A program made the translations under genes and the position numbers. The notes below the pieces were generated by a model, which saw only the letters and a list, made by a program, of their open reading frames with translations, did no database searches and was not told the DNA's origin. From Arthrobacter russicus (GTDB lineage Bacteria; Actinomycetota; Actinomycetes; Actinomycetales; Micrococcaceae): 64,000 nt of DNA. Positions 5,711 to 26,424 of the stretch are shown here, piece after piece. Location of the stretch: NCBI RefSeq assembly GCF_031454135.1, contig NZ_JAVDQF010000001.1, positions 2,790,001-2,854,000 of the forward strand. Reading direction: 5' to 3'. How positions within the stretch are numbered: the stretch's first letter is position 1; each line of letters opens with the position of its first letter.

Positions 5711-6091
5711 ATGGGACTGTTCGATGACATCAAAAAGAATGTCGAAGATGTTGCCAAGAATGTCGGCGACGCAGTAAACGATGCGTTCAATCGCGACCAG
5801 AATCAGAATCAGGATCAGCAGGCCGAACAGCCCGCGGAAGAAGCTCCGGCGGAGCAGCCGGCCGCCGAAGAGGCTGCTCCGGAAGCCGCCCCGGTGGAAG
5901 AAGCTGCTCCGGTAGCCGAAGAAGCCGCGCCGGTGGAGGAAGCCGCCGCGCGCCAGGTGACCGTTGCCGACGGCGACAACCTGTCCGCGATCGCTGCCGC
6001 GAACGGTGTGGATCTGCAGGCGCTGATCGAGGTCAACGGCATTGAGAACCCGGACTTGATTTTCCCGGGCCAGGTGCTGACTCTGCCGTAG
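5711..6091 (+). CDS. LysM domain protein with acidic Ala/Glu/Pro linker
   Basis: 126 residues. The N-terminus (MGLFDDIKKNVEDVAKNV) is an amphipathic helix with no signal peptide. Residues about 28-80 are a low-complexity Glu/Ala/Pro linker. Residues 81-126 are a LysM module (VADGDNLSAIAAANGVD ... FPGQVLTLP), which in other proteins binds N-acetylglucosamine of peptidoglycan. Without a visible export signal its location is unclear; it resembles small BON/LysM-type cytoplasmic or peripheral proteins. The start has GGAAGG at 5697-5702. A GTG 9 nt upstream is in frame but lacks good spacing. Confidence 0.8.
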   Translation: MGLFDDIKKNVEDVAKNVGDAVNDAFNRDQNQNQDQQAEQPAEEAPAEQPAAEEAAPEAAPVEEAAPVAEEAAPVEEAAARQVTVADGDNLSAIAAANGVDLQALIEVNGIENPDLIFPGQVLTLP

Positions 6092-6106
6092 TCGATTCTC
6101 TGGGCA

Positions 6107-6174
6107 CACGCAGCGGACTCGGCTGGGAAACCTGGTGTTTTAGCGGGCTTCCGGCTTGCCGAGTCCGCTGCGTG
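6107..6174. repeat. 17-bp perfect inverted repeat with 34-nt spacer
   Basis: CACGCAGCGGACTCGGC at 6107-6123 is the exact reverse complement of 6158-6174. It lies just after the LysM stop and about 80 bp before tRNA-Thr. No T-tract follows either arm. It could be a transcription-stop hairpin or an operator; the wide loop argues against a simple intrinsic terminator. Confidence 0.7.
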
Positions 6175-6238
6175 CGTCTGGCTTCGGGGTGAAATCGCTC
6201 GGTTGCGAGGTCGATTTCCCCCCAGCTGAATCCGCTGG

Positions 6239-6244
6239 TAAAGT
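6239..6244 (+). promoter_or_regulatory. Likely -10 box (TAAAGT) for the tRNA-Thr/tRNA-Met transcript
   Basis: TAAAGT lies 12 nt before the tRNA-Thr acceptor stem. No convincing -35 is visible at 16-18 bp spacing. Confidence 0.4.
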
Positions 6245-6255
6245 ATTCATCTGTT

Positions 6256-6327
6256 GCCCCCCTAGCTCAGTGGTAGAGCGCGTTCTTGGTAAGAACGAGG
6301 TCACCGGATCGATTCCGGTGGGGGGCT
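6256..6327 (+). tRNA. tRNA-Thr (anticodon GGT)
   Basis: The acceptor stem GCCCCCC (6256-6262) pairs with GGGGGGC (6320-6326). The anticodon arm CGTTC-TTGGTAA-GAACG carries GGT, and the T-arm is ACCGG-ATCGATT-CCGGT. All four arms fold. No CCA is encoded. Confidence 0.96.
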
Positions 6328-6391
6328 CGCAATGGGTAGGCTCGTGTCAAGACGGTTTTGGCCGGCAAAGGCACGGGCCAATCCCATTTAT

Positions 6392-6468
6392 GGCGGTGTA
6401 GCTCAGTTGGTTAGAGCGCACGACTCATAATCGTGAGGTCGGGAGATCGAGCCTCCCCACCGCTACCA
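6392..6468 (+). tRNA. Elongator tRNA-Met (anticodon CAT)
   Basis: The acceptor GGCGGTG (6392-6398) pairs with CACCGCT (6458-6464). The anticodon arm is CACGA-CTCATAA-TCGTG. CCA is encoded at 6466-6468. A paired first base of the acceptor marks it as the elongator rather than the initiator form. Confidence 0.96.
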
Positions 6469-6470
6469 GT

Positions 6471-6500
6471 ACAGGCCCGGAACCAGCGTTCCGGGCCTGT
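6471..6500 (+). terminator. Hairpin terminator after the tRNA pair
   Basis: ACAGGCCCGGAA (6471-6482) pairs perfectly with TTCCGGGCCTGT (6489-6500) around a 6-nt loop. The T-run is weak (TGTTGTG), as is common in high-GC actinobacteria. Confidence 0.75.
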
Positions 6501-7038
6501 TGTGCGCCCGGCTCCCGATGCGGGGCGGCCGCGGCCCCACCGATCGGGTGAGCGCGCCGTTGATCTGCAGCAAGGTGGAAGCCGATGCGATTCACCCGCG
6601 GTGGTGGGCCGGCCTGGACGCCCGAAATGGCGGCGCGTCAGGGCAGGTCCTGGCGCCGCCGGGCGTTGTCGGCCTGCTGTCTGCTGGTGTCGCCGGTGCG
6701 CCTGATTGTCGACAAATTCTTCGCGTTTGAAAAAGCTCAGTGAATCCTTAGCGGACACTTGGCAGTAACTGCCAAGCTGTCAATTCAGCTCAGTTTCCCT
6801 AGTGGAGCCAAAGTGCCGGCCCGGCATCCGTCCTGGATTGGTTCAGCAAGCCAGGTTGGCTGACGAGTCACCGGGCAAAACTGGTGCGCCGCGCAATTGG
6901 GGAAGCGCGGCGCACCAGCAGTGAGGGCGGTTGCGCATTGGGATACGCAGCCTTTATGTAAGGACAGACAGACACGTCCATCCTCCACCCGGTGCCGCTT
7001 TGGGGAGTCGGCACCGAGAGGTTCATGGGATTCCTGGT
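6501..7038. other. Gene-poor stretch with palindromes
   Basis: No open frame here has convincing coding character. It holds a 19-bp palindrome at 6758-6776 (arms CTTGGCAGT / ACTGCCAAG around one base), directly upstream of a short minus-strand frame starting MSAKDSLSFFKREEF that soon turns into low-complexity sequence. It also holds a 14-bp perfect hairpin at 6881-6894 / 6905-6918 (CTGGTGCGCCGCGC) that probably terminates the minus-strand gene ending at 7039. Confidence 0.6.
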
Positions 7039-8193
7039 TCAGGAGACCAGTTCGGCACCCGTCCGGACGGGGCGGATGAAGTTCCGACTGGATGCGGCAG
7101 GCGCTGGCCGGAGGCTCGTTTCGCCGAGTCCGAGCAGTTTGCTGACTGCTGCGGCGCATCGGAGCGAGGCCAAGCCATCGCCGAACGGATCTTCGCTCGG
7201 AGTGCTCAGTGGTGGGCTTTGCAACGCCGATTCGATCTGCCCGGCGATCTTGATCGGGTCTACCGGAGAGGACCCGGGTCCCGCCGAAGCAGCTGGCAAT
7301 ACCGGTTTGCCGAGGGCGCCGGCTTCCGTCAGCACGCTGGAATCGTCGGTGAGCACGAGTTTGCTCCGGGCGAGCAGGCGGCAGTAGCTGCGAAAATCCA
7401 GCGAGCCGCACAGCGTCACGTTGGGCAGGGCCGTGGCCGGTCTGCGCCACCGGAAATTTCCCATTGCCGCTGGTGCAGAGACCAAATAGCTCCGCTCCGG
7501 GTGCTTCGCTGCGGAATCCAACATCGCGTCCACTATGCCGGCTACCGCGGCGTCGTCCTTGCCGCCGCGGAGGATGGCCAGAATCGGAGTTGCAGAGCCG
7601 GTGAGCAGTCGCCGGAGGGGAGCCGGAGTCGAATCCGGACGACGCCCGGCTTGCGCGGAGGAGATCCCGTGCAGCAGCGAGTCGATCGTGGTACTGCCGG
7701 TGAGTTCGATCGAGGCTGCGGGCACACCTTCAGCAAGCAGCTGATCGCACCCGGCGTGGTTCGCTTCGAGATAGAGGTCGGCAGTTCCTCCGGTCGGGTG
7801 CCGATGTCGGATTTTGGTCGCCAAGGCGGCAGCCGAGGTGTCCAGGCTGGCCAAGGGAATCAGCAGGTGTGCTGCTGCCATGGCCAGGGCCGAAGAGTCC
7901 CGCCCGGAGGCGTGGACGAGCACGGCGTCGGGCCGGTTGGCGGCCAAGAACTGACCGGCTTCGGCCAGCAGCTGGCCGAAGCCGAGCCGCGCATGACGGG
8001 ATTTCCGGTTTTGCGGAAAAGCGTGTTCGGGCCGGATGCCGAAAAGCCCTGCTGCCAAGGAAGGCCCCGCCATGTGGTCGTGCGGGGCGACGACCCGGAC
8101 GGCAAGTTGCGATGAATCGGCGAGGCGGGCTGCCACGGGGGCGACCTTGATCGCCTCGGCGTGGGTGCCGAAATAGGCCAGGACCGTTTTCAT
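7039..8193 (-). CDS. Divergent UDP-GlcNAc 2-epimerase-like protein lacking catalytic motifs
   Basis: 384 residues. The start MKTVLAYFGTHAEAIKVAPVAARL aligns with the WecB/MnaA opening (FGTRPEAIKMAPV), and LTGSTTIDSLL and VLTDDSSVLTEAGALGKPVL match later family motifs of the GT-B fold. Several residues needed for catalysis look replaced. The FGTR arginine is His, the VHGDT segment reads VHASGRDSS, the HVEAGLR segment is not recognisable, and HRREN reads ILRGGKDDA. It probably keeps the fold without the epimerase reaction. The ATG at 8193 has GAGGAA upstream. It is divergent from the surface-protein gene, sharing a region with a CRP-like site. No glycan genes adjoin it. Confidence 0.7.
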   Translation of the reverse strand: MKTVLAYFGTHAEAIKVAPVAARLADSSQLAVRVVAPHDHMAGPSLAAGLFGIRPEHAFPQNRKSRHARLGFGQLLAEAGQFLAANRPDAVLVHASGRDSSALAMAAAHLLIPLASLDTSAAALATKIRHRHPTGGTADLYLEANHAGCDQLLAEGVPAASIELTGSTTIDSLLHGISSAQAGRRPDSTPAPLRRLLTGSATPILAILRGGKDDAAVAGIVDAMLDSAAKHPERSYLVSAPAAMGNFRWRRPATALPNVTLCGSLDFRSYCRLLARSKLVLTDDSSVLTEAGALGKPVLPAASAGPGSSPVDPIKIAGQIESALQSPPLSTPSEDPFGDGLASLRCAAAVSKLLGLGETSLRPAPAASSRNFIRPVRTGAELVS

Positions 8194-8474: not shown

Positions 8475-10325
8475 ATGGCGGGATTGAACAAGCTTCGGGC
8501 GGGGGCGATGCGAAAGGGGTTGGGCATACTGGGCCTAGCGCTGTTCGCTGGCCTGGTCCAAGCGCCAGGTGCGGCCGCGGAGACTGGCGACCAATGGCCG
8601 TTGACGGCAGCCACCGCACCGGTCCAGATCGACCCCGCTGGGCTGTACGGATCCTCGGGAAATCAGATTTTCAAATTCACCGGGCTGCAAAACGGGCAGG
8701 CTGGTACTGAACTGACCGCCCAAACTGCTCCTGGGGCACCGGCCTATTGGTCCTCGAATCTCGGGCTGGGGCGTGATGCGCAAGGAAGCCTCGAGTTCGT
8801 CGGCAGCCGTTACAACACGGGTTATCCTGCGCTCTACAGCCTCAAAAACGGAGCTAGCTCAATCACCGAAATCGGCTCCGCTCCGCAAACCAGCGCCGCA
8901 TGGGGTGGGCTTTCAGTGGCCCCAGACGGCGGCATCTGGCAGGGTACGAATCTGCAGAGCACCGGGAACAGCCGGCTGTCGCGGTTCGATCAGCAAGCCG
9001 GGACTGGTGTGATCAGCGGCCCGCTGACGTCCACGTTGGCCGGGGACCGGATTTGGGACGGGGGAGGCGTGGTCGCCCCGGACTACGCCTTCGATGCCGC
9101 AGGCAACCTTTTCGGTCTGGTGTTCAACCGTGGCGAAGGCTGGATCTACCGCTACAATATCGACTCTTTCTCTGCTTCCGGGATGACGGTGACGCCCTGG
9201 CTGCAGATCTCCGGGCCGGCGCTGACTGCAGGTTCCTCGAACTACGGATTCGCCTGGCTGGGCGGCAATTGGTACGCGGGAAACGGCAACGGCACCTTGT
9301 ACCGGATCAATGCGGAGACCGGCGCGTCGGTGGTCGCCGGGGAGGTCACCACTCCGTCGACGTTCGACTACCGGTTGACCGATCTCGCCTCGGCCGAGTT
9401 GGTGCCCGGTCCGCGCCTTGAGGTGACTAAATCCGCGGATCGCACGGTGGTGGACCCGGGCGGTGTGGTCAGGTTTACGCTGACCGGGACGAATACCGGT
9501 GCTGCGACGTTCGCGGCGGATTTCGCGGACGAGTTGTCCGAGGTGCTCGATGAGGCTGATTACAACGGTGATGCGAGCGCAGACATCGGATCAATTGGGC
9601 TTTCCGGTCAGCGGTTGTTGTGGCGTGGCGAGCTTGCGCCGGGGCAGCGGGTGACCGTGACGTTTTCGGTGACGGTCAAGGCCGTGGTGCCGGGGGACTA
9701 CCGTTTGGTGAACCGGGTGAGCAGTACGGTCCCGGAGGCGGTGCTGCCGCCTCCGGTGACCGTCGACATTTCGGGCTTCGTGTTGACCAAAACCGTGGAC
9801 CGGACAGTTGCAGCTCCCGGCGACCAGGTGAGCTACACCGTGGTCGGCCGGAACGTCGGGCGGACGCCACTGCGGGCGGGCTTCAGCGATGACCTGAGCC
9901 AAGTGCTCGACGACGCCGCGTTCCGCGGTGATGTCGATGCCAACACCGGGCGGGTTTGGAGCTCTGCCGATTCGATCCGTTGGAGCGGTCGGTTACTGCC
10001 CGGCCAAGCGGTCACCGTGACGTATCAGGTGGTGGTCCGGGCCGGTGGAGGCGACGGGATCCTGCGCAATTCAGTGACCAGCAGCACCTCCGGAGGGCAG
10101 GAAACCACGCCGGTGCAGACCACCGTGCGGGAAGTTCCCGGGACGCCGCAGGCTGACCGTGCCGTCCAGCCGGTCGGCCCCGGGGCGCCGGGTCCGACCA
10201 CGGAGACGCTGCCGAACACCGGATCGGCCACCGCCGCGTTGATCTTCTCCGGTGCGCTGGCGGCGCTGCTCGGCTTGGTCTTGTTGGCAGCAGCTCGATT
10301 CCGTCCTGAGGAGGACCGGTCATGA
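8475..10325 (+). CDS. LPXTG-type surface protein with propeller-like domain and two DUF11 repeats
   Basis: 616 residues. A signal peptide (positively charged start, hydrophobic GILGLALFAGLVQ, cleavage near AAAETG) is followed by a beta-propeller-like region (about 45-310) with repeated GxLYRIN / IYRYN strands. Two DUF11-type repeats follow at about 314-430 (LEVTKSADRTVVDPGG) and 433-545 (LTKTVDRTVAAPGD). The C-terminus has a sorting signal: LPNTGS near residue 577, a hydrophobic segment and a basic tail. Sortase should therefore attach it to peptidoglycan. The stop overlaps the start of the sigma-factor gene (ATGA), so the two are translationally coupled. The ligand or role is unknown. Confidence 0.85.
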   Translation: MAGLNKLRAGAMRKGLGILGLALFAGLVQAPGAAAETGDQWPLTAATAPVQIDPAGLYGSSGNQIFKFTGLQNGQAGTELTAQTAPGAPAYWSSNLGLGRDAQGSLEFVGSRYNTGYPALYSLKNGASSITEIGSAPQTSAAWGGLSVAPDGGIWQGTNLQSTGNSRLSRFDQQAGTGVISGPLTSTLAGDRIWDGGGVVAPDYAFDAAGNLFGLVFNRGEGWIYRYNIDSFSASGMTVTPWLQISGPALTAGSSNYGFAWLGGNWYAGNGNGTLYRINAETGASVVAGEVTTPSTFDYRLTDLASAELVPGPRLEVTKSADRTVVDPGGVVRFTLTGTNTGAATFAADFADELSEVLDEADYNGDASADIGSIGLSGQRLLWRGELAPGQRVTVTFSVTVKAVVPGDYRLVNRVSSTVPEAVLPPPVTVDISGFVLTKTVDRTVAAPGDQVSYTVVGRNVGRTPLRAGFSDDLSQVLDDAAFRGDVDANTGRVWSSADSIRWSGRLLPGQAVTVTYQVVVRAGGGDGILRNSVTSSTSGGQETTPVQTTVREVPGTPQADRAVQPVGPGAPGPTTETLPNTGSATAALIFSGALAALLGLVLLAAARFRPEEDRS

Positions 10326-19775: not shown

Positions 19776-20825
19776 ATGCTGCTTTCGGAACTCACCACCT
19801 TGCAGGTCGGCGGCCCGGCAGCCGGATTCGTCCGGGCGGAAACCGAAGCCGAGGTGATCGATGCGGTGCGCAGCGCCGATGCCGCCGGGACGCCGTTGCT
19901 GGTGATTGGCGGCGGCTCAAATCTGCTGGTCTCGGATTCCGGGTTCCCGGGCACCGTGCTGCAGATCGCTTCGACCGGATTCGAAGCTTCGTCGCAGGAC
20001 AGCTGCGGTGGGGCCGCAGTCCGGGTCCAGGCCGGGCAGAACTGGGATGACTTCGTGCACCAATCGGTGCTGCACGCCTGGAGCGGTTTGGCGGCCCTGT
20101 CCGGCATCCCCGGGCTTGCCGGAGCGACGCCGGTGCAGAACGTGGGCGCTTATGGATCCGACGTTGCGCAGACCATAGCGATGATCCGGACCTGGGACCG
20201 GGAAATCTCGGCCGTGCGCAGCTTCAGCAATTCCGAACTGCAGTTCGGCTATCGGGATTCGCTGCTCAAACGCAGTTCGGTCAACGGTTCGCCGCGCTAC
20301 GTGGTGCTGAGCGTGGAGTTCCAATTGGCTCTGGGCCGGATGAGCCCCCCGGTGCAATACGCCCAATTGGCCGCTGCACTCGGCGTCCAAGTCGGCGACC
20401 GGGCACCGGCCCTGGACGTCCGCGAAGCGGTGCTGGAGCTCAGATCGGCCAAAGGCATGGTCAGCGACGCCGCAGATCGGGACAGCTATTCAACCGGTTC
20501 GTTCTTCACGAATCCGATCGTGCCGGCCGCGCTCGCCGAATCACTGCCGGCCGCGGCGCCGCGGTTCCCAGTGGCCGGCCGCGACGCGGTCAAACTCAGT
20601 GCCGCCTGGCTGATCTCGCAAGCCGGCTTCGACCGTGGCTTCGGTGCCGAGCTCACCGGAGGCCGTTCGACGCTCTCCACCAAGCATTCTCTGGCAATCA
20701 CGAACCGGAGCGGCGCCAGTGCCGAAGACGTGTTGCGGATCGCACGCGTGGTGCGAGCGGGAGTGCAGCAACGGTTCGGCGTCGAATTGGAACCCGAACC
20801 CTTGCTCATCGGCTGCAGTTTGTGA
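19776..20825 (+). CDS. murB: UDP-N-acetylmuramate dehydrogenase
   Basis: 349 residues. FAD-binding features are plain: TTLQVGGPAAGFVRA, the GGGSNLLVSD loop, SGIPGLAGATPVQNVGAYG, and the C-terminal SAAWLISQAGFDRG with KHSLAITNR. It is a type I MurB, reducing UDP-GlcNAc-enolpyruvate to UDP-MurNAc in the cytoplasm with NADPH. The ATG follows the HadB-like stop without a gap. The 3' end overlaps the methyltransferase start (GTGA). Confidence 0.95.
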   Translation: MLLSELTTLQVGGPAAGFVRAETEAEVIDAVRSADAAGTPLLVIGGGSNLLVSDSGFPGTVLQIASTGFEASSQDSCGGAAVRVQAGQNWDDFVHQSVLHAWSGLAALSGIPGLAGATPVQNVGAYGSDVAQTIAMIRTWDREISAVRSFSNSELQFGYRDSLLKRSSVNGSPRYVVLSVEFQLALGRMSPPVQYAQLAAALGVQVGDRAPALDVREAVLELRSAKGMVSDAADRDSYSTGSFFTNPIVPAALAESLPAAAPRFPVAGRDAVKLSAAWLISQAGFDRGFGAELTGGRSTLSTKHSLAITNRSGASAEDVLRIARVVRAGVQQRFGVELEPEPLLIGCSL

Positions 20826-21637
20826 GCTACAGCTATACCGCGTTCTGGACCGCCGCGGCCCGGGCCCGGGAAAGCGAACGGGCCGACGCGTTGTTCGTCG
20901 ATCCGTTTGCCGGTCGACTGTCCGGGCCGCGCGGTCAGGCGGCCTTGGCGGCGAGCGAGGCGGCCTCCGGGATGCCCAACCCGTTCCTGCCGATCCGCAC
21001 CCGATGGTTCGACGACCGGGTGTCTGCCTCGGATGCGAAACAGCTGGTGGTCTTGGGTGCCGGAATGGATGCCAGAGCATTCCGGTTCCGCACTCCGGAG
21101 GCGGTTTTCGAACTGGACCTGGCCGAATCCTTCGACCACAAGGAGCGGGTCCTGGCCGGCGAGCTGCCACTGGCCCGCCGGACCGTGGTGCGGACCGATG
21201 TCACCGGCGAATGGGCGGTGGACCTGCTGGCGGCCGGCTTCGACCGCCGGTTGCCCACACAGTGGGTCGCCGAAGGCTTGTTGTTCTATTTGGACGGCCC
21301 CGCGGTCGGGCGGATGCTGCGGGCTGCAGCCGGGCTTTCGGCACCCGGGTCCGAGTTCCTGGCGGATGTCTTCGGCAGCGGACTGCTCGGGACGCCGGGC
21401 ATGGCGGAATTCATCGCGGCACGGGCCAAGGCTGCGCTGCCGCCACCGTTTTGCACGGACCAACCCGAAGCGCTTTTCCGCGCCGCCGGGTGGCAGGCGC
21501 ACTGCACGCTGGTGGGCTCCGCCGAAGCGAATTTCGGCCGATTGCCGATGCTCCAACCGGACCTGCCAAGCACGGAAAGCTCAGTGCCGGGGATGCGGAC
21601 GTATCTGGTCCGAGCCGGCATCCACGCCGGGGTTTGA
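20822..21637 (+). CDS. SAM-dependent methyltransferase, leucine carboxyl methyltransferase (LCMT/Ppm1) family
   Basis: 271 residues. The family pattern is an N-terminal SYTAFWTAAARARES, RTRWFDDRV, then the SAM-binding VVLGAGMDARAFRF and FELDLAESFDHKERVL, and WVAEGLLFYLDG. Members methylate carboxylates or polyketide oxygens in many pathways. It is coupled to murB by a GTGA overlap and converges with the TOMM cluster, its stop 14 bp from the cluster's last stop. A role in tailoring the peptide is possible but not shown. Confidence 0.85.
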   Translation: MSYSYTAFWTAAARARESERADALFVDPFAGRLSGPRGQAALAASEAASGMPNPFLPIRTRWFDDRVSASDAKQLVVLGAGMDARAFRFRTPEAVFELDLAESFDHKERVLAGELPLARRTVVRTDVTGEWAVDLLAAGFDRRLPTQWVAEGLLFYLDGPAVGRMLRAAAGLSAPGSEFLADVFGSGLLGTPGMAEFIAARAKAALPPPFCTDQPEALFRAAGWQAHCTLVGSAEANFGRLPMLQPDLPSTESSVPGMRTYLVRAGIHAGV

Positions 21638-21650
21638 CCGGCGACGGACC

Positions 21651-22370
21651 TCAGCGGTAAACGGTTTGCTGGACCCGGCGATAGCCGAGCACCGCGATCG
21701 CGGAACACAGCAGCAGGTAGCCGGCGAGGATGAGCAACGCCGGAATCGCCACCGACCCATGCAGTGCTGCCGCGATCAGATCCGACCAGGCGCCGGTCGG
21801 ACTCCACGTGTGCAGGGGCTGCCATGGTCCGAAGTCCACCGGTCCGAACAGCGCGCCCAGGAAGGACAGCGGGAAGTAGATCAAATTGGCAATCGGCAAG
21901 GCACCTCGGGAAGGCAGCCAGTAGCCCAGGGCCAAGCCCAGACAGCCGTGCACCAGAGCTCCGGTCACCAGCGCCGCGGATGCCAGCCCCAGCGCGGTCG
22001 GCGGAATCCCTTGGAACCCGCCGAAAAGCATTCCGATGACCGCAAACGGCGAGGCGAAAAGCACTGCGAAAACCACTCCGGCGAGCAGCTGGGCGAAGAT
22101 TCGTTGCCTGGGGCTGGCCGGCAGCGAAAGCAAATAGAGATTCCAAGGGTCGTTACGGGTGGCGGCAATGCCCACGCCGAATTGAAACATCGCTGCACCG
22201 AGCATCGCGAAGGCGGCGTAGTTGAACAGCGTCTGCCCTGGTGGCCCTCCGGAACGCAGCCCGACGGTCAGATAGAGCAACACCGGAAAGGTGGCCATGG
22301 GGATCAGGAAAGACGGCAATCTGAGCAGCTCGAGCAGTTGCAATCTGACGTAGGCAAGCAGATACCTCAT
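21651..22370 (-). CDS. ABC-2 type exporter permease of the TOMM cluster
   Basis: 239 residues with about six membrane helices (LLAYVRLQLLELLRLPSFLI start, then helices to GYLLLCSAIAVLGYRR). ABC-2 fold exporters of this size pair with a stand-alone ATPase to move peptides or drugs outward. It is the last gene of the cluster, and its ATG overlaps the ATPase stop (ATGA at 22367-22370). It is the expected export channel, and possibly immunity pump, for the modified peptide. Confidence 0.85.
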   Translation of the reverse strand: MRYLLAYVRLQLLELLRLPSFLIPMATFPVLLYLTVGLRSGGPPGQTLFNYAAFAMLGAAMFQFGVGIAATRNDPWNLYLLSLPASPRQRIFAQLLAGVVFAVLFASPFAVIGMLFGGFQGIPPTALGLASAALVTGALVHGCLGLALGYWLPSRGALPIANLIYFPLSFLGALFGPVDFGPWQPLHTWSPTGAWSDLIAAALHGSVAIPALLILAGYLLLCSAIAVLGYRRVQQTVYR

Positions 22371-23251
22371 CGCTGCGGCTCCAGCAGCAATTCGCCGACG
22401 GCCTCTTCCAAGGACGACGGGTTGATCTGCAGCCGGGGACGGTCCAAGGCCTGGAGCAGGATCCTGGCGGCTTGGTCCGGGTACCGCGTGGTCAACCGGA
22501 AGCGGCCGTCGTCGAGGCGTTGCAGCGCGCCCAGCGGAGTCACCCCGGCCGGTGCCTCCGGAGCGTTGAAAACCACGTGGCTCAAGGCCAGGGTACCGCG
22601 GACCGAATCGGTGCTGCCCGAGGCCAGCCGGACGCCGTCCTTGACCAGTGTGACGGTGTCCGCAGTGGATTCGACTTCGGCATAATCGTGCGAGGCCATG
22701 ATGATGCAGCGGCCGGCCGAGCGCTGTGCCAGGATCAAGTGCCGCACCGCGGCCCTGCCCTCGATATCGAGTCCGGCGAGCGGTTCGTCGAGAATCAACA
22801 CGGGTGCATTGGCGATCACCGCGCAGGCGATGCCGAGCCGGCGTCGTTGACCGCCGGAAAGGCCGCCGCAGTGCTTTTCCAGGAAAGCCTGCAGACCCAA
22901 TTCGGTGACGATCCGGCCGAGCGGAACCGGATCCGGATAATGCATCGCCACGAAACCGAGTACCTCGCGCGCGGTGAGCGTGGCCGGAAACGACAAGGAT
23001 TGCGGAACGCTGCCGAGCCAACGGGTTTGTGGTCCGCCGCGCACCACGGTCTTGCCGAGCACCTGGACGGTGCCCCGGCTGGCGGCGCGGACTCCGGTCA
23101 AAATGCCCAGCGCAGTGGATTTGCCGGCGCCGTTGGGCCCGAGCAGGCAATGCACGCCCGGCCCCAGGGCGAGCGAAAATTCGGTCAGCGCAGGAACTCC
23201 GCGGTACTTCTTGCTGACGGATTCCCAGCTGGCCATCGGTTCTCGGCTCAT
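22367..23251 (-). CDS. ABC exporter ATPase of the TOMM cluster
   Basis: 294 residues. Walker A LLGPNGAGKST, signature GLSGGQRRRLGIA, Walker B VLILDEPLAGLD and switch MASHDYAEVE are intact. A C-terminal extension of about 85 residues is typical of drug-export ATPases of the CcmA/DrrA kind. There is no C39 protease domain, so leader removal is not done by this protein. The ATG at 23251 overlaps the dehydrogenase stop by 4 nt. Confidence 0.88.
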   Translation of the reverse strand: MSREPMASWESVSKKYRGVPALTEFSLALGPGVHCLLGPNGAGKSTALGILTGVRAASRGTVQVLGKTVVRGGPQTRWLGSVPQSLSFPATLTAREVLGFVAMHYPDPVPLGRIVTELGLQAFLEKHCGGLSGGQRRRLGIACAVIANAPVLILDEPLAGLDIEGRAAVRHLILAQRSAGRCIIMASHDYAEVESTADTVTLVKDGVRLASGSTDSVRGTLALSHVVFNAPEAPAGVTPLGALQRLDDGRFRLTTRYPDQAARILLQALDRPRLQINPSSLEEAVGELLLEPQR

Positions 23252-24045
23252 GCGGCATCGCGGCGCCGCGCGGTGCCGAAGGCGACGCTGTAGACCACGG
23301 ATTGTTCGACGCCGTCCAAGCAGAGCAAATCGTCGACCTCTTGATCGATGAAGCCGCCGACCGGGCAGCTGGCGATCCCGGATTCCTGTGCGGACATGAT
23401 CATGGCTTGAGCCAGGTGCCCGGCCTCGAGCAAGGTGAACCGGTAGGACCGTTGGCCGTATTTGATTCGTTGCCGGGCGAACGAGGCGATGAAGAAGACG
23501 TGGAATGCGGAACTCTCGGCGAGGTCCTGGAACAGCAAGGTCTCGCTGAGGAAAGTCCGGGGATCCTTGCCGATCCGCAGCCGGTTCAGCTCGGCCGCGA
23601 ACGGATCCAGGGAGTAGATTCCGGAGGCGAGCCCCCGGACCCCGCAGACGCAGAGGTAGACATCGAGCGGGTAGAGCGCCCCGGCCGAAGGCGCACCTCG
23701 ACGGCCGGCAGGGGAGGTGCACGCGGTATCCAACAGGATCCGGCTCAATTGGCCGAAATCCACCTGCGATGGCCCGAAACCGGTGACCGATTGCCGATCG
23801 CGTAGCACCGTGCCGACCGGCGTCGGCTCGGTGGCCGGGGCCAAGGGATGACGTTCGGCGGAACCCACGATCGAGCTCGGCACCCCGAAGCCGGCCAAGG
23901 CTTCGGGGTCGTTGGCGAGCTCGAAGGCGTAGGGTCCGGAAAACGATTCGCTGACCCAGGGGCTGAGTTTGGCGGCGGCGTGGTAATTCTCGGCCGGATC
24001 ATCTGCGGGAATCCAGGGCAGTGACTTCAGCAGGCTATCTTCCAT
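23248..24045 (-). CDS. SagB-type FMN-dependent azoline dehydrogenase (TOMM B protein)
   Basis: 265 residues. It carries the SagB-type nitroreductase features: VLRDRQSVTGFGPSQ, then GRRGAPSAGALYPLDVYLC, and near the end GHLAQAMIMSAQESGIASCPVGGF. Family members oxidise thiazolines and (methyl)oxazolines to aromatic azoles using FMN. Its presence predicts that at least some rings in the product are aromatic. The ATG at 24045 has GAGGAG upstream and follows the YcaO stop by 14 bp. Confidence 0.9.
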   Translation of the reverse strand: MEDSLLKSLPWIPADDPAENYHAAAKLSPWVSESFSGPYAFELANDPEALAGFGVPSSIVGSAERHPLAPATEPTPVGTVLRDRQSVTGFGPSQVDFGQLSRILLDTACTSPAGRRGAPSAGALYPLDVYLCVCGVRGLASGIYSLDPFAAELNRLRIGKDPRTFLSETLLFQDLAESSAFHVFFIASFARQRIKYGQRSYRFTLLEAGHLAQAMIMSAQESGIASCPVGGFIDQEVDDLLCLDGVEQSVVYSVAFGTARRRDAA

Positions 24046-24059
24046 ACGGGGCTCCTCGG

Positions 24060-25307
24060 TCAAGGGAAAGGATGCGGGGTCGGGTTGCGGATCTCGCCGT
24101 GCTGACGCAGATGCGGGAACTCGACGTCGAGCGTCGCCGCTTGCGGGCTCAAGGCCCGGACGACGTGCCAGCCGCTTCTGGCGACGTCCGGCGAACGCAG
24201 ATCGGCCAACCAGACGTCCCAGCCCTGGTCGCGGGTCCGGGCGATCACATCGCCCAGCGGCTGGTTGCCGTTGGCGGTGAAATCCGCTTCCGCGGATTCC
24301 GGCCCGCGGTCCAGAAAAGCGTTGTGCTTCCGGTTCTCCGGCGCGGCATGGAAGGCGATGTGGTCTTCGAGCTCGGCCACGGCGTCGATTTCGGGTGTTC
24401 CGCCGAGCATCCGCAGGCTCCAGTTGTACGTGTGCACCGACTCCAGGAAAGCGGCGGTCATCGCCGAGCGCACCTCCGATTTGGCGGCGCAGCCGACGGC
24501 GAGCCCCACCTTCGCCGAGCGCGCGCAGGCCAGGATCACCGGTACACCGCCGGCGCCTTCGAAGCGGACCAAGGTGACCGTGATGCCGAGCAGTTCGAGT
24601 TGCCGGCAGATCCGGCGCAGCGGCCCGGTGAAATGCATCGGCACCCGCTCCGGGATGCGGAAGCACTGACCGGTTTCGGCTCGGTACCAGGCACGCATGA
24701 AGGCATCGCGTTCGATCAATTCGAAGACCGCGCCGCGAGCGGCCATGCCGAAATTTCGCCCCGCGGCAAGCCCGTTGGAGGTGATTGCGCACCACTGCCG
24801 GGAGCCGGTGGGATGCAGAAAAGCGAGATCGGCCGGCACCGCCCCGAGCCGGCCGTCCGAAGCGCGCATTGCCCGGTGGAACCGGATGTCCCCGGCCGCG
24901 TCGGGATGCGTGAACGGAAAGCCCGGGCTGGCGTACTGCGCGTCGGTGAACTGTTGGAACTCGCGGACCGGGATCTGCTCCGCAGCCGGATACGCTTCGA
25001 ACCGGCGCGGAATGACATTCGCGGAATACCGTTCCACGAACTCGCCGCAGGCGGAGCCGAAGAGCTGCCCGGCAGTCAGGCCGAAACCCATGCTGGACCT
25101 GCGCGAGATGGCAGTCCCGGTGCAGGCGGGGAGATTGGGTGCCTGCACTGCGAACGCCGGTACCTGGACCGAACCCGGGGCCAATCTGACCTCGCGCAGG
25201 GCGGGGATGAGCCCGACGTCGGCCCCGACGAGCCCTTCACTCAGGACGGGGAAGGGAGCCAGGGATAGTTGGTCGAGAATATCCCGCTCTTTGAACAGGT
25301 AGGGCAT
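24060..25307 (-). CDS. YcaO cyclodehydratase (TOMM D protein)
   Basis: 415 residues. YcaO ATP-binding elements are present: SMGFGLTAGQLFGSACGEFVERY and later GAVFELIERDAFMRAWY, then AKSEVRSAMTAAFLESVH. The C-terminus ends IRNPTPHPFP, a proline-rich PxPxP-like tail characteristic of azoline-forming YcaO proteins. With ATP it should activate the amide backbone at Cys, Ser and Thr, using the C protein to hold the leader. The ATG at 25307 follows GGAG; a TTG at 25322 is an alternative. It overlaps the C-protein gene by 67 nt. Confidence 0.92.
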   Translation of the reverse strand: MPYLFKERDILDQLSLAPFPVLSEGLVGADVGLIPALREVRLAPGSVQVPAFAVQAPNLPACTGTAISRRSSMGFGLTAGQLFGSACGEFVERYSANVIPRRFEAYPAAEQIPVREFQQFTDAQYASPGFPFTHPDAAGDIRFHRAMRASDGRLGAVPADLAFLHPTGSRQWCAITSNGLAAGRNFGMAARGAVFELIERDAFMRAWYRAETGQCFRIPERVPMHFTGPLRRICRQLELLGITVTLVRFEGAGGVPVILACARSAKVGLAVGCAAKSEVRSAMTAAFLESVHTYNWSLRMLGGTPEIDAVAELEDHIAFHAAPENRKHNAFLDRGPESAEADFTANGNQPLGDVIARTRDQGWDVWLADLRSPDVARSGWHVVRALSPQAATLDVEFPHLRQHGEIRNPTPHPFP

Positions 25308-26080
25308 CGGGGAACACTCCAAACTCGGGAGCAGTAGGCGGTCAGGGAATCCGGAGTGAACACGAGGCAGGCTCCGATCGACTCGCCGCGCTGCTGGTAA
25401 AACGCGGAGTCGGCGAGGCGCCGGGCCAGATTGAGCCCGAGCAGGAGATCGGCCCGGTCGAATTCCCGGATCGCATCCGCCGAGTTCAGCAAGAGGTATT
25501 CGTCAGGCCATTCGGTCAAAGCCGCGCGGCGGACGAGCAGGCATTCGAAACATGCCGTGATGCCGGGCACCACGGCCGGGCCGATGACGATCTTTTCGCC
25601 GTCGGAAGGGAGCAGCGGAACGTGGCAGAGCCCGGAATCCCAGTACCGCTTGGCGGCTTGCAGCATTTCCGAAACCGATTCGCGGACGAGTACGGCCGGC
25701 AGCGTCGGCGAATTGCTGGTCCGGGCGAATCCGGAGCAGGTCTGCTGGTCCAACAGCTGCTCCGGCGCGTCCAGGCTGAGTTCCCGTGCGGCGCGCCCGG
25801 GGCCGAAGTCCAATTGCCGGATCTGTCCGATCAATCGCGAGGACGCAGTGACCACGCCAGTGTTGGCGAGCGACCGCAAGAGGCGTTCCGGGTCCTGCAG
25901 ATCCGGAACGCCTCCCGCAACCTGCGCCACGGTTCGGGGCTCCGCAAGGAATTCGAACAACCGCCTGGCCAGTTCCTGGTTGTCCCGGAAACGCACCAGT
26001 GAACTGCCCAGCACCAAGGCGAAACAGTCGGTGAAATCGGCCTTCCTGGTTCCTGCGGCCGTGACGTAGGTGACCGGCAT
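25241..26080 (-). CDS. TOMM cyclodehydratase partner (C protein, leader binding)
   Basis: 279 residues. The N-terminal 90 residues (FALVLGSSLVRFRDNQELAR ... LLRSLANTGVV) look like the PqqD-like RRE winged helix that grips leader peptides. The remainder resembles the E1-like ThiF fold of TOMM C proteins, with two CxxC pairs (ACFECLL near residue 185 and RCPTC near 260) that would hold a structural zinc. It is shorter than fused C-D proteins and so acts with the separate YcaO. It begins five bases after the precursor stop and has only a weak ribosome site, so it is probably translationally coupled. Confidence 0.85.
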   Translation of the reverse strand: MPVTYVTAAGTRKADFTDCFALVLGSSLVRFRDNQELARRLFEFLAEPRTVAQVAGGVPDLQDPERLLRSLANTGVVTASSRLIGQIRQLDFGPGRAARELSLDAPEQLLDQQTCSGFARTSNSPTLPAVLVRESVSEMLQAAKRYWDSGLCHVPLLPSDGEKIVIGPAVVPGITACFECLLVRRAALTEWPDEYLLLNSADAIREFDRADLLLGLNLARRLADSAFYQQRGESIGACLVFTPDSLTAYCSRVWSVPRCPTCSKSGIFSTNYPWLPSPS

Positions 26081-26085
26081 GGTGC

Positions 26086-26319
26086 TCAGGGCTGGCTGGG
26101 CTTGGTGGTGCTGGAGCAGGAACACGAAGTGGAGCTGCACAGCGAGACGCCGTCCTGCATGGTCGCGGTGCGCGCCGTGGAACCGGTGAACTCGAACTCG
26201 AGCTCCTTGAGCAGTTCCGGCATCACGGTTCCCGGTCGGGTCTCCGCGGGGTCGAAGGTGATCGCCGGAAGCACTGGAGGCAGATCGATGGCGGGTTGCG
26301 GGGTAGCGATCCGATTCAT
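26086..26319 (-). CDS. TOMM/LAP precursor peptide with Cys/Ser/Thr-rich core
   Basis: 77 residues. An unusually proline-rich leader start (MNRIATPQPAIDLPPVLPAI) leads to an acidic amphipathic segment (PELLKELEFEFTG), then TARTATMQDG, then the core VSLCSSTSCSCSSTTKPSQP. Twelve successive residues, CSSTSCSCSSTT, are all heterocyclisable (3 Cys, 6 Ser, 3 Thr). That pattern resembles linear azole-containing peptides and streptolysin-S-like peptides. The cleavage site is not encoded by any obvious motif; after DG is a guess. AGGAG sits 4 nt before the ATG. It is the first gene of the cluster. Confidence 0.88.
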   Translation of the reverse strand: MNRIATPQPAIDLPPVLPAITFDPAETRPGTVMPELLKELEFEFTGSTARTATMQDGVSLCSSTSCSCSSTTKPSQP

Positions 26320-26364: not shown

Positions 26365-26424
26365 CATGCCTCCGGGGTCGGAGGCATGGCAGCGACTTTA
26401 TTTCAGCGACTGACGAATCGTCAA
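26365..26424 (-). promoter_or_regulatory. Promoter, operator and 5' hairpin of the TOMM cluster
   Basis: On the minus strand TTGACG (26419-26424), an 18-bp spacer and TAAAGT (26395-26400) form a promoter. A palindrome TGACGA-A-TCGTCA (26411-26423) covers the -35. The predicted transcript start near 26388 falls on a 9-bp hairpin (CATGCCTCC at 26365-26373 with GGAGGCATG at 26380-26388), so the mRNA would begin with a stem-loop. The ribosome site for the precursor follows about 60 nt later. Confidence 0.65.

Follow-up and report, generated by a model that had tools for sequence, protein, structure and literature searches.

What is made by the six closely packed genes that occupy positions 26319-21651, on the minus strand, of a 64,000-nucleotide stretch of the Arthrobacter russicus genome, and to what end? 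The stretch (referred to throughout as the window) comprises positions 2790001-2854000 of a genome represented by one contig of 3,818,559 bases, and the genes encode, in order, a small precursor peptide (A), a C protein, a YcaO cyclodehydratase (D), a SagB-type dehydrogenase (B), and the ATPase and permease of an ATP-binding cassette (ABC) transporter. A preliminary description, made from the DNA letters, had seen in them a compact and apparently complete cluster for a linear azol(in)e peptide (LAP), also called a thiazole/oxazole-modified microcin (TOMM). The answer argued here, to which we assign a probability of about 0.82, is close to that one: a LAP operon of the C + D + B type, whose ring-bearing peptide would be made and exported, most likely to serve as an antibacterial.

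The six-gene set is there and looks intact: all six open reading frames (ORFs) are found on the strand and in the order originally described, each with an ATG available as its start. Three of its members are securely recognized by family models: D (24060-25307; 415 amino acids, aa) scores 138.8 bits against PF02624 (cut-off 25.7), B (23248-24045; 265 aa) scores 121.5 bits against TIGR03605 (cut-off 78.4), and the ATPase (22367-23251; 294 aa) scores 79 bits against PF00005 (cut-off 25). Because all three exceed their family cut-offs, the gene set is not a chance assembly. The packing is as tight as had been claimed, with four of the five junctions overlapping or separated by at most 5 bp: A and C are 5 bp apart, C and D overlap by 67 bp (25241-25307), and the ATPase gene overlaps the B gene and the permease gene by 4 bp each; the 14-bp gap between D and B is the exception. 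The C/D overlap, which holds the last CxxC motif of C together with the start of D, amounts to 67-121 bp across the eight loci for which it was computed, and to ~76-79 bp, judging from coordinates, at L023 (L and G here designate loci and genomes of our comparison).

Is this arrangement peculiar to one genome? A search of 395 genomes of the same bacterial family with the D protein (matches at E<=1e-20) found 12, and eight of these, the window's own included, carry the six-gene cluster; one (G019) carries it twice. There are, besides the window, eight such loci (L017-L024), and tblastn finds the same order (A, C, D, B, ATPase, permease) at all eight. The cluster-bearing genomes belong to two genera, and at E<=1e-40 D has a match in 5 of the 7 that represent the window's genus and in 3 of 4 of the second; the other four genomes (L025-L028) contain different LAP clusters, with D proteins 27-32% identical to that of the window. 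Partial samples of the order (396 genomes), the class (394) and the phylum (246) contain no D relative at E<=1e-40 outside the window's genus, the matches being the window's own genome and, in the order sample, one more of the same genus (G026); since the best few first-look candidates were scored per genome, absence from these samples is no proof. The window YcaO found no match among phages, and none among viral contigs that was confirmed; its matches among plasmids come to 18 records, at a best identity of 30%. The eight D proteins group as one clade (support 100/100, branch 2.08) in a tree of 15 rows; long branches meet at this clade (L042 with it), and the deeper order of the tree is accordingly not used. 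A second genome of the species (G097) has the cluster at 97-99% protein identity: the codon changes between the two are synonymous in 9 of 12 cases in D, 10 of 12 in the ATPase, 15 of 22 in the permease, 9 of 14 in B and 11 of 20 in C, and there are no internal stops within the species in any of the six genes.

Comparison of 14-kb loci (ORFs of at least 50 aa) supports the six genes as the unit: none of the genes next to the cluster is common to both genera. One observation speaks against a strict six-gene unit: an ORF resembling transporters of the major facilitator superfamily at L024 (12409-13983) matches ORFs of L020-L022 that lie ~2-3 kb past the permease gene. It is found at none of the other loci compared, and is probably an unrelated chance neighbor drawn from a large family.

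The preliminary description had staked its reading on conservation of the ATP-binding residues of the YcaO protein. These (E89, E92, R93, E196, E199 and R200) are invariant in the eight aligned D proteins, as are D201 and the PHPF tail; the motifs to which they belong, E89xxER and E196xxER, align with TruD, LynD and MJ1094, and we take their residues to be the ATP/Mg ligands. D, which is the only YcaO match in the window's genome, terminates in PTPHPFP, and eight of the nine loci share the PHPFP end. L024, in a draft genome (G077), does not: its D gene is split over two frames (5977-7292), either because the gene is broken or because the sequence is in error. The sequence of B matches BmdC and McbC in the Protein Data Bank (PDB), and its K195-Y196 pair, presumably catalytic, is invariant in seven aligned B proteins. 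The gene assigned to the ABC-2 type permease (21651-22370; 239 aa) follows the ATPase gene at all eight relatives as well as here.

The C protein (25241-26080; 279 aa) has an N-terminal part resembling a recognition element (RRE) of ribosomally synthesized and post-translationally modified peptides (RiPPs), followed by an E1-like domain. Its AlphaFold model (mean pLDDT 72.9), compared with the PDB by Foldseek, matches LynD (E 1.2e-11), TruD (8.8e-11) and a chain of the McbBCD complex (6e-10) that is taken to be McbB. TM-scores are moderate, at ~0.4-0.5, and identities are 10-16%: the likeness is one of fold, and the window's C is a stand-alone protein. It is mainly this structure match that supports assigning C to the E1-like leader-binding proteins. 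Nine C proteins have in common four cysteines spaced as two CxxC pairs (C177, C180, C259 and C262), which line up with TruD in an alignment that is itself weak (E 0.47). The first 80 residues of the model form strands, three helices and a strand; by their secondary structure they fit the winged helix that RRE domains are described as having (PMC10634744), and binding of the leader is predicted for them.

At E<=1 the precursor (26086-26319; 77 aa) has no match among Pfam or NCBIfam families. Its leader would extend to about residue 57 and is followed by the core region SLCSSTSCSCSSTTKPSQP, in which residues 61-72 (codons at 26104-26139, minus strand) are twelve contiguous Cys, Ser or Thr and thus candidate ring formers; G097 has the identical run. 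Seven aligned precursors share the leader motif ETxPGxxMPxxLxxL[DE]F, have E26, T27, P29, G30, M33, P34, L37, L40, F42, G46, A52 and M54 invariant, and diverge thereafter: the core is TLSSSCTGRPQQPTRP at L018, TLCSSTSIQTRPTKD at L019, TLSSSCSSARPTSPKAP at L020-L022, TVSSSCSSSGRPKNPKQQ at L023 and SCCSSSSCTLPPTRN at L024. A constant leader joined to a variable core rich in Cys, Ser and Thr is what a RiPP precursor family looks like. A profile of the precursor finds one credible copy in the window's own genome and, among the 395 genomes of the family, 11 at E<=0.001, of which nine (one of them, G129, holding a remnant described below) score E<=8.5e-20 and fall entirely within the two genera. Two weak hits outside these genera were judged to be chance: that of G244 (E 1.2e-4) has an internal stop, and that of G150 (E 9.5e-4) lies, on reading its translation, in a uvrA-like frame. 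The 3-kb stretches around the two contain no match to A, C, D or B at E<=0.01, and a single weak permease segment and a single weak ATPase segment.

Family models, the fold of C, conserved residues and synteny together support membership of the LAP class, as the preliminary description proposed. What the cluster would do follows from the known roles of the C, D and B families: the winged-helix-like domain of C would bind the leader of A; D, held by C, would use ATP to form azolines from Cys, Ser and Thr residues in the core; and B would oxidize some or all of these to thiazoles and (methyl)oxazoles. A protease encoded outside the cluster would then cut off the leader, and the ABC pair would export the product and perhaps contribute to self-protection. 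That the strain makes and exports an azole-containing peptide, as the preliminary description had proposed, is in this sense something that we infer, along with ring formation, leader removal, export, the activity and the product. Among LAPs are inhibitors of the ribosome, cytolysins and antibacterials of narrow range; the most likely role here would be that of a narrow-spectrum antibacterial with a core particular to each species, and action against relatives is offered as a first guess.

Several observations weigh against this reading and should be set beside those that favor it. C scores 35.7 bits against TIGR03882, 1.2 bits short of the cut-off of 36.9, and its sequence aligns weakly with TruD (E 0.47) and LynD (E 0.017). 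The AlphaFold model of D (pLDDT 35) was discarded, and the ATP pocket was examined by sequence alone. The permease is weakly recognized, ABC-2 models falling below their cut-offs (best PF12698, E 7e-4). The cores of L018-L024 have shorter contiguous heterocyclizable runs (5 to 9 residues) and contain little Cys, which makes the number of rings uncertain. Both changes that separate the precursors of the two genomes of the species are non-synonymous, and located in the leader. Finally, there is the matter of leader removal. Eight proteins were scanned with family models, namely those of the six cluster genes and of one flanking gene on each side, and no leader protease was found among them; TldD/E, which according to PMC10885120 is the leader protease of microcin B17, has no match in the genome. 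Three matches to the Rce1 family do exist elsewhere, the nearest ~0.17 Mb away, and these are candidates only. The six-gene unit stands, then, and the "apparently complete" of the preliminary description is to be read with this reservation.

How else might these genes be read? The same scan found no match to LanB-type dehydratase, pyridine synthase, protease or regulator families (in the case of the ATPase, among the best 25 of its 199 family matches); the preliminary description had likewise seen none, and within the compass of these eight proteins a thiopeptide or goadsporin cluster can be set aside. Nor was any match to TfuA found in it. This bears on the notion that the YcaO protein introduces a thioamide or amidine into the peptide backbone instead of rings: YcaO enzymes partnered with TfuA do so (PMC8120280), and the C partner and SagB-type dehydrogenase belong instead to azole chemistry, leaving this option very improbable. 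We regard as equally improbable a peptide of the plantazolicin type, which is made from a leader ending in FEPxAARC, carries two blocks of rings and has a methyltransferase. Clusters of this type with C, D and B genes do occur in other genera of the same bacterial family: plantazolicin-like precursor ORFs are found at three of the four other LAP loci, ending in AARCSCTTVPCCCCCGG (L026), AARCTTTTLISTTCTWA (L027) and AARCTTTTIISSSSSCW (L028). The window core, however, has neither the FEPxAARC motif nor an initial Arg, and is not divided into two blocks of about five heterocyclizable residues; these features largely refute the assignment. Its D protein matches those of L025-L028 with blastp E-values of 5e-28 to 2e-36, compared with a grouping threshold of 1e-54 given by Cox et al. 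2015 (PMC4603692), a comparison to be read in the knowledge that E-values depend on database size. The methyltransferase that adjoins the window cluster is a companion of murB, and L018, L019 and L024 lack it next to their clusters. As regards the plantazolicin-like loci themselves, at L027 the precursor ORF is followed in tandem by one similar to it (9384-9509 and 9618-9752), and L041 is a compact LAP cluster on a Corynebacterium tuberculostearicum plasmid with a plantazolicin-like ORF ending in FEPTAARCSCSSSTCCVLCVKK.

A cytolysin cluster like that of streptolysin S (SLS) is suggested by the kinds of gene present (C, D, B and ABC transporter) and by the twelve contiguous Cys, Ser and Thr of the window core; cytolysin cores, according to Cox et al. 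(PMC4603692), have at least 10 such residues following a Gly. We nevertheless hold it to be unlikely. D scores 145 bits and C 23.5 bits where the SagD and SagC subfamily cut-offs are 219.25 and 187.65; a CaaX-type protease was not found among the six genes and two flanks, the three Rce1-family genes lying elsewhere; and the long run is a property of the window species and not of the family, as the cores of the other loci attest. The comparison with known LAP families that the preliminary description had called for places the cluster, in sum, outside the plantazolicin type and below the SagC and SagD cut-offs. A different kind of objection accepts the enzymes and the rings, which are compatible with it, and disputes the role: the peptide might act in signaling, or be a metabolite with metal or redox activity, and not an antibacterial. 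Restriction to two genera in the samples examined, a single chromosomal place beside murB in one of these, and the lack of a separate immunity gene are in its favor. On the other side, the cores vary between species, and one copy of the cluster has a transposase-like ORF nearby and is carried by an 82-kb contig, both of which fit bacteriocins better; we consider a signaling or metabolic role possible, and a good deal short of probable. A LAP operon with a probable antibacterial product is the reading retained here.

What of the cluster's surroundings? Within the window's genus it lies near murB (in the window and at L017, L018, L019 and L024); in the second genus its flanks differ from these. 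One genome of that first genus, G054, has the empty site: its murB and alkZ-like ORFs are ~30 bases apart (L045:9893-12121), where the window has a methyltransferase gene and the cluster between them. Another, G129, belongs to the window's genus and has at the same place (L044:10825-14734) a remnant in which one can still recognize the precursor, a portion of B, the ATPase and a permease whose frame is interrupted; there is no match to C or D better than E 0.19, and two ORFs that read like transposases lie between precursor and B, in the position expected for C and D. The extra copy in G019 (L023) sits on an 82,744-base contig (G019:C2), with a transposase-like ORF ~2 kb past the permease gene; the contig may be a plasmid, and the DNA of this copy has no match among plasmids. 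The empty site, the remnant, the flanks in the second genus and the separate contig together show that the location of the cassette varies and that loss or breakage has befallen it on more than one occasion.

The methyltransferase gene of the window (20822-21637, plus strand; of the TIGR00027 type that uses S-adenosylmethionine) shares 4 bp with murB, which lies on that strand too, and converges on the permease gene. Of the loci compared within the genus, those of the window species and of G129 alone have it. Because it pairs with murB, is missing at three cluster-bearing loci of the genus and is kept in G129 beside an interrupted cluster, it has been set aside as a component of the cluster; it may still act as a tailoring enzyme in the window species. 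Upstream of the cluster at L018 (3324-4892) and L019 (3279-4861) are genes that read like a regulator and an FAD-dependent oxidoreductase, common to these two loci only. Upstream of the window precursor gene there is one weak promoter-like site (TTGACG-18-TAAAGT; 26395-26424, minus strand), for which 0.3 would be expected in shuffled sequence; the promoter/terminator scan of the locus found no terminator-like site.

Compact LAP clusters consisting of C, D, B and ABC genes are already a known kind, and the present one is a distinct, lineage-restricted six-gene family within that kind, well suited as a target for discovery, and not a new kind of system. With LAP/TOMM clusters generally, as described by Cox et al. 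2015 (PMC4603692), it shares discrete C and D proteins, a SagB-type B, an ABC transporter and a Cys/Ser/Thr-rich core encoded beside the enzymes; it differs in that neither a protease nor a tailoring enzyme was found within it, in a leader motif of its own, and in a D clade far removed from those compared. The plantazolicin-like loci (L026-L028 and L041) have C, D and B genes as the window does, and ABC genes at L027, L028 and L041; they differ in their FEPxAARC leader/core, in ABC genes that are upstream where seen, and in D proteins that are 26-29% identical. With the SLS-like cytolysins the gene kinds are shared and, in the window species, the long Cys/Ser/Thr run; the missed SagC and SagD cut-offs and the CaaX protease not found in the cluster set the two apart. 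The family may border on the hakacin, mobilisin, heterocycloanthracin or goadsporin groups. The open-licence literature yielded no paper tied to this cluster and no described product.

One can go a step further and suggest, tentatively, that this LAP family is a new one, confined to two genera within one actinobacterial family, that it makes short poly-oxazole/thiazole peptides that are rich in Ser and have a Pro-rich tail, that it dispenses with a dedicated protease, and that its species-specific cores act on close relatives without the cluster. If no protease is indeed dedicated to the task, one has to ask how the leader is removed. An operon of six genes with a precursor of only 77 residues should be easy to reconstitute, and the natural core variants that follow one and the same leader are a ready test of which patterns of Ser, Thr and Cys the enzymes accept.

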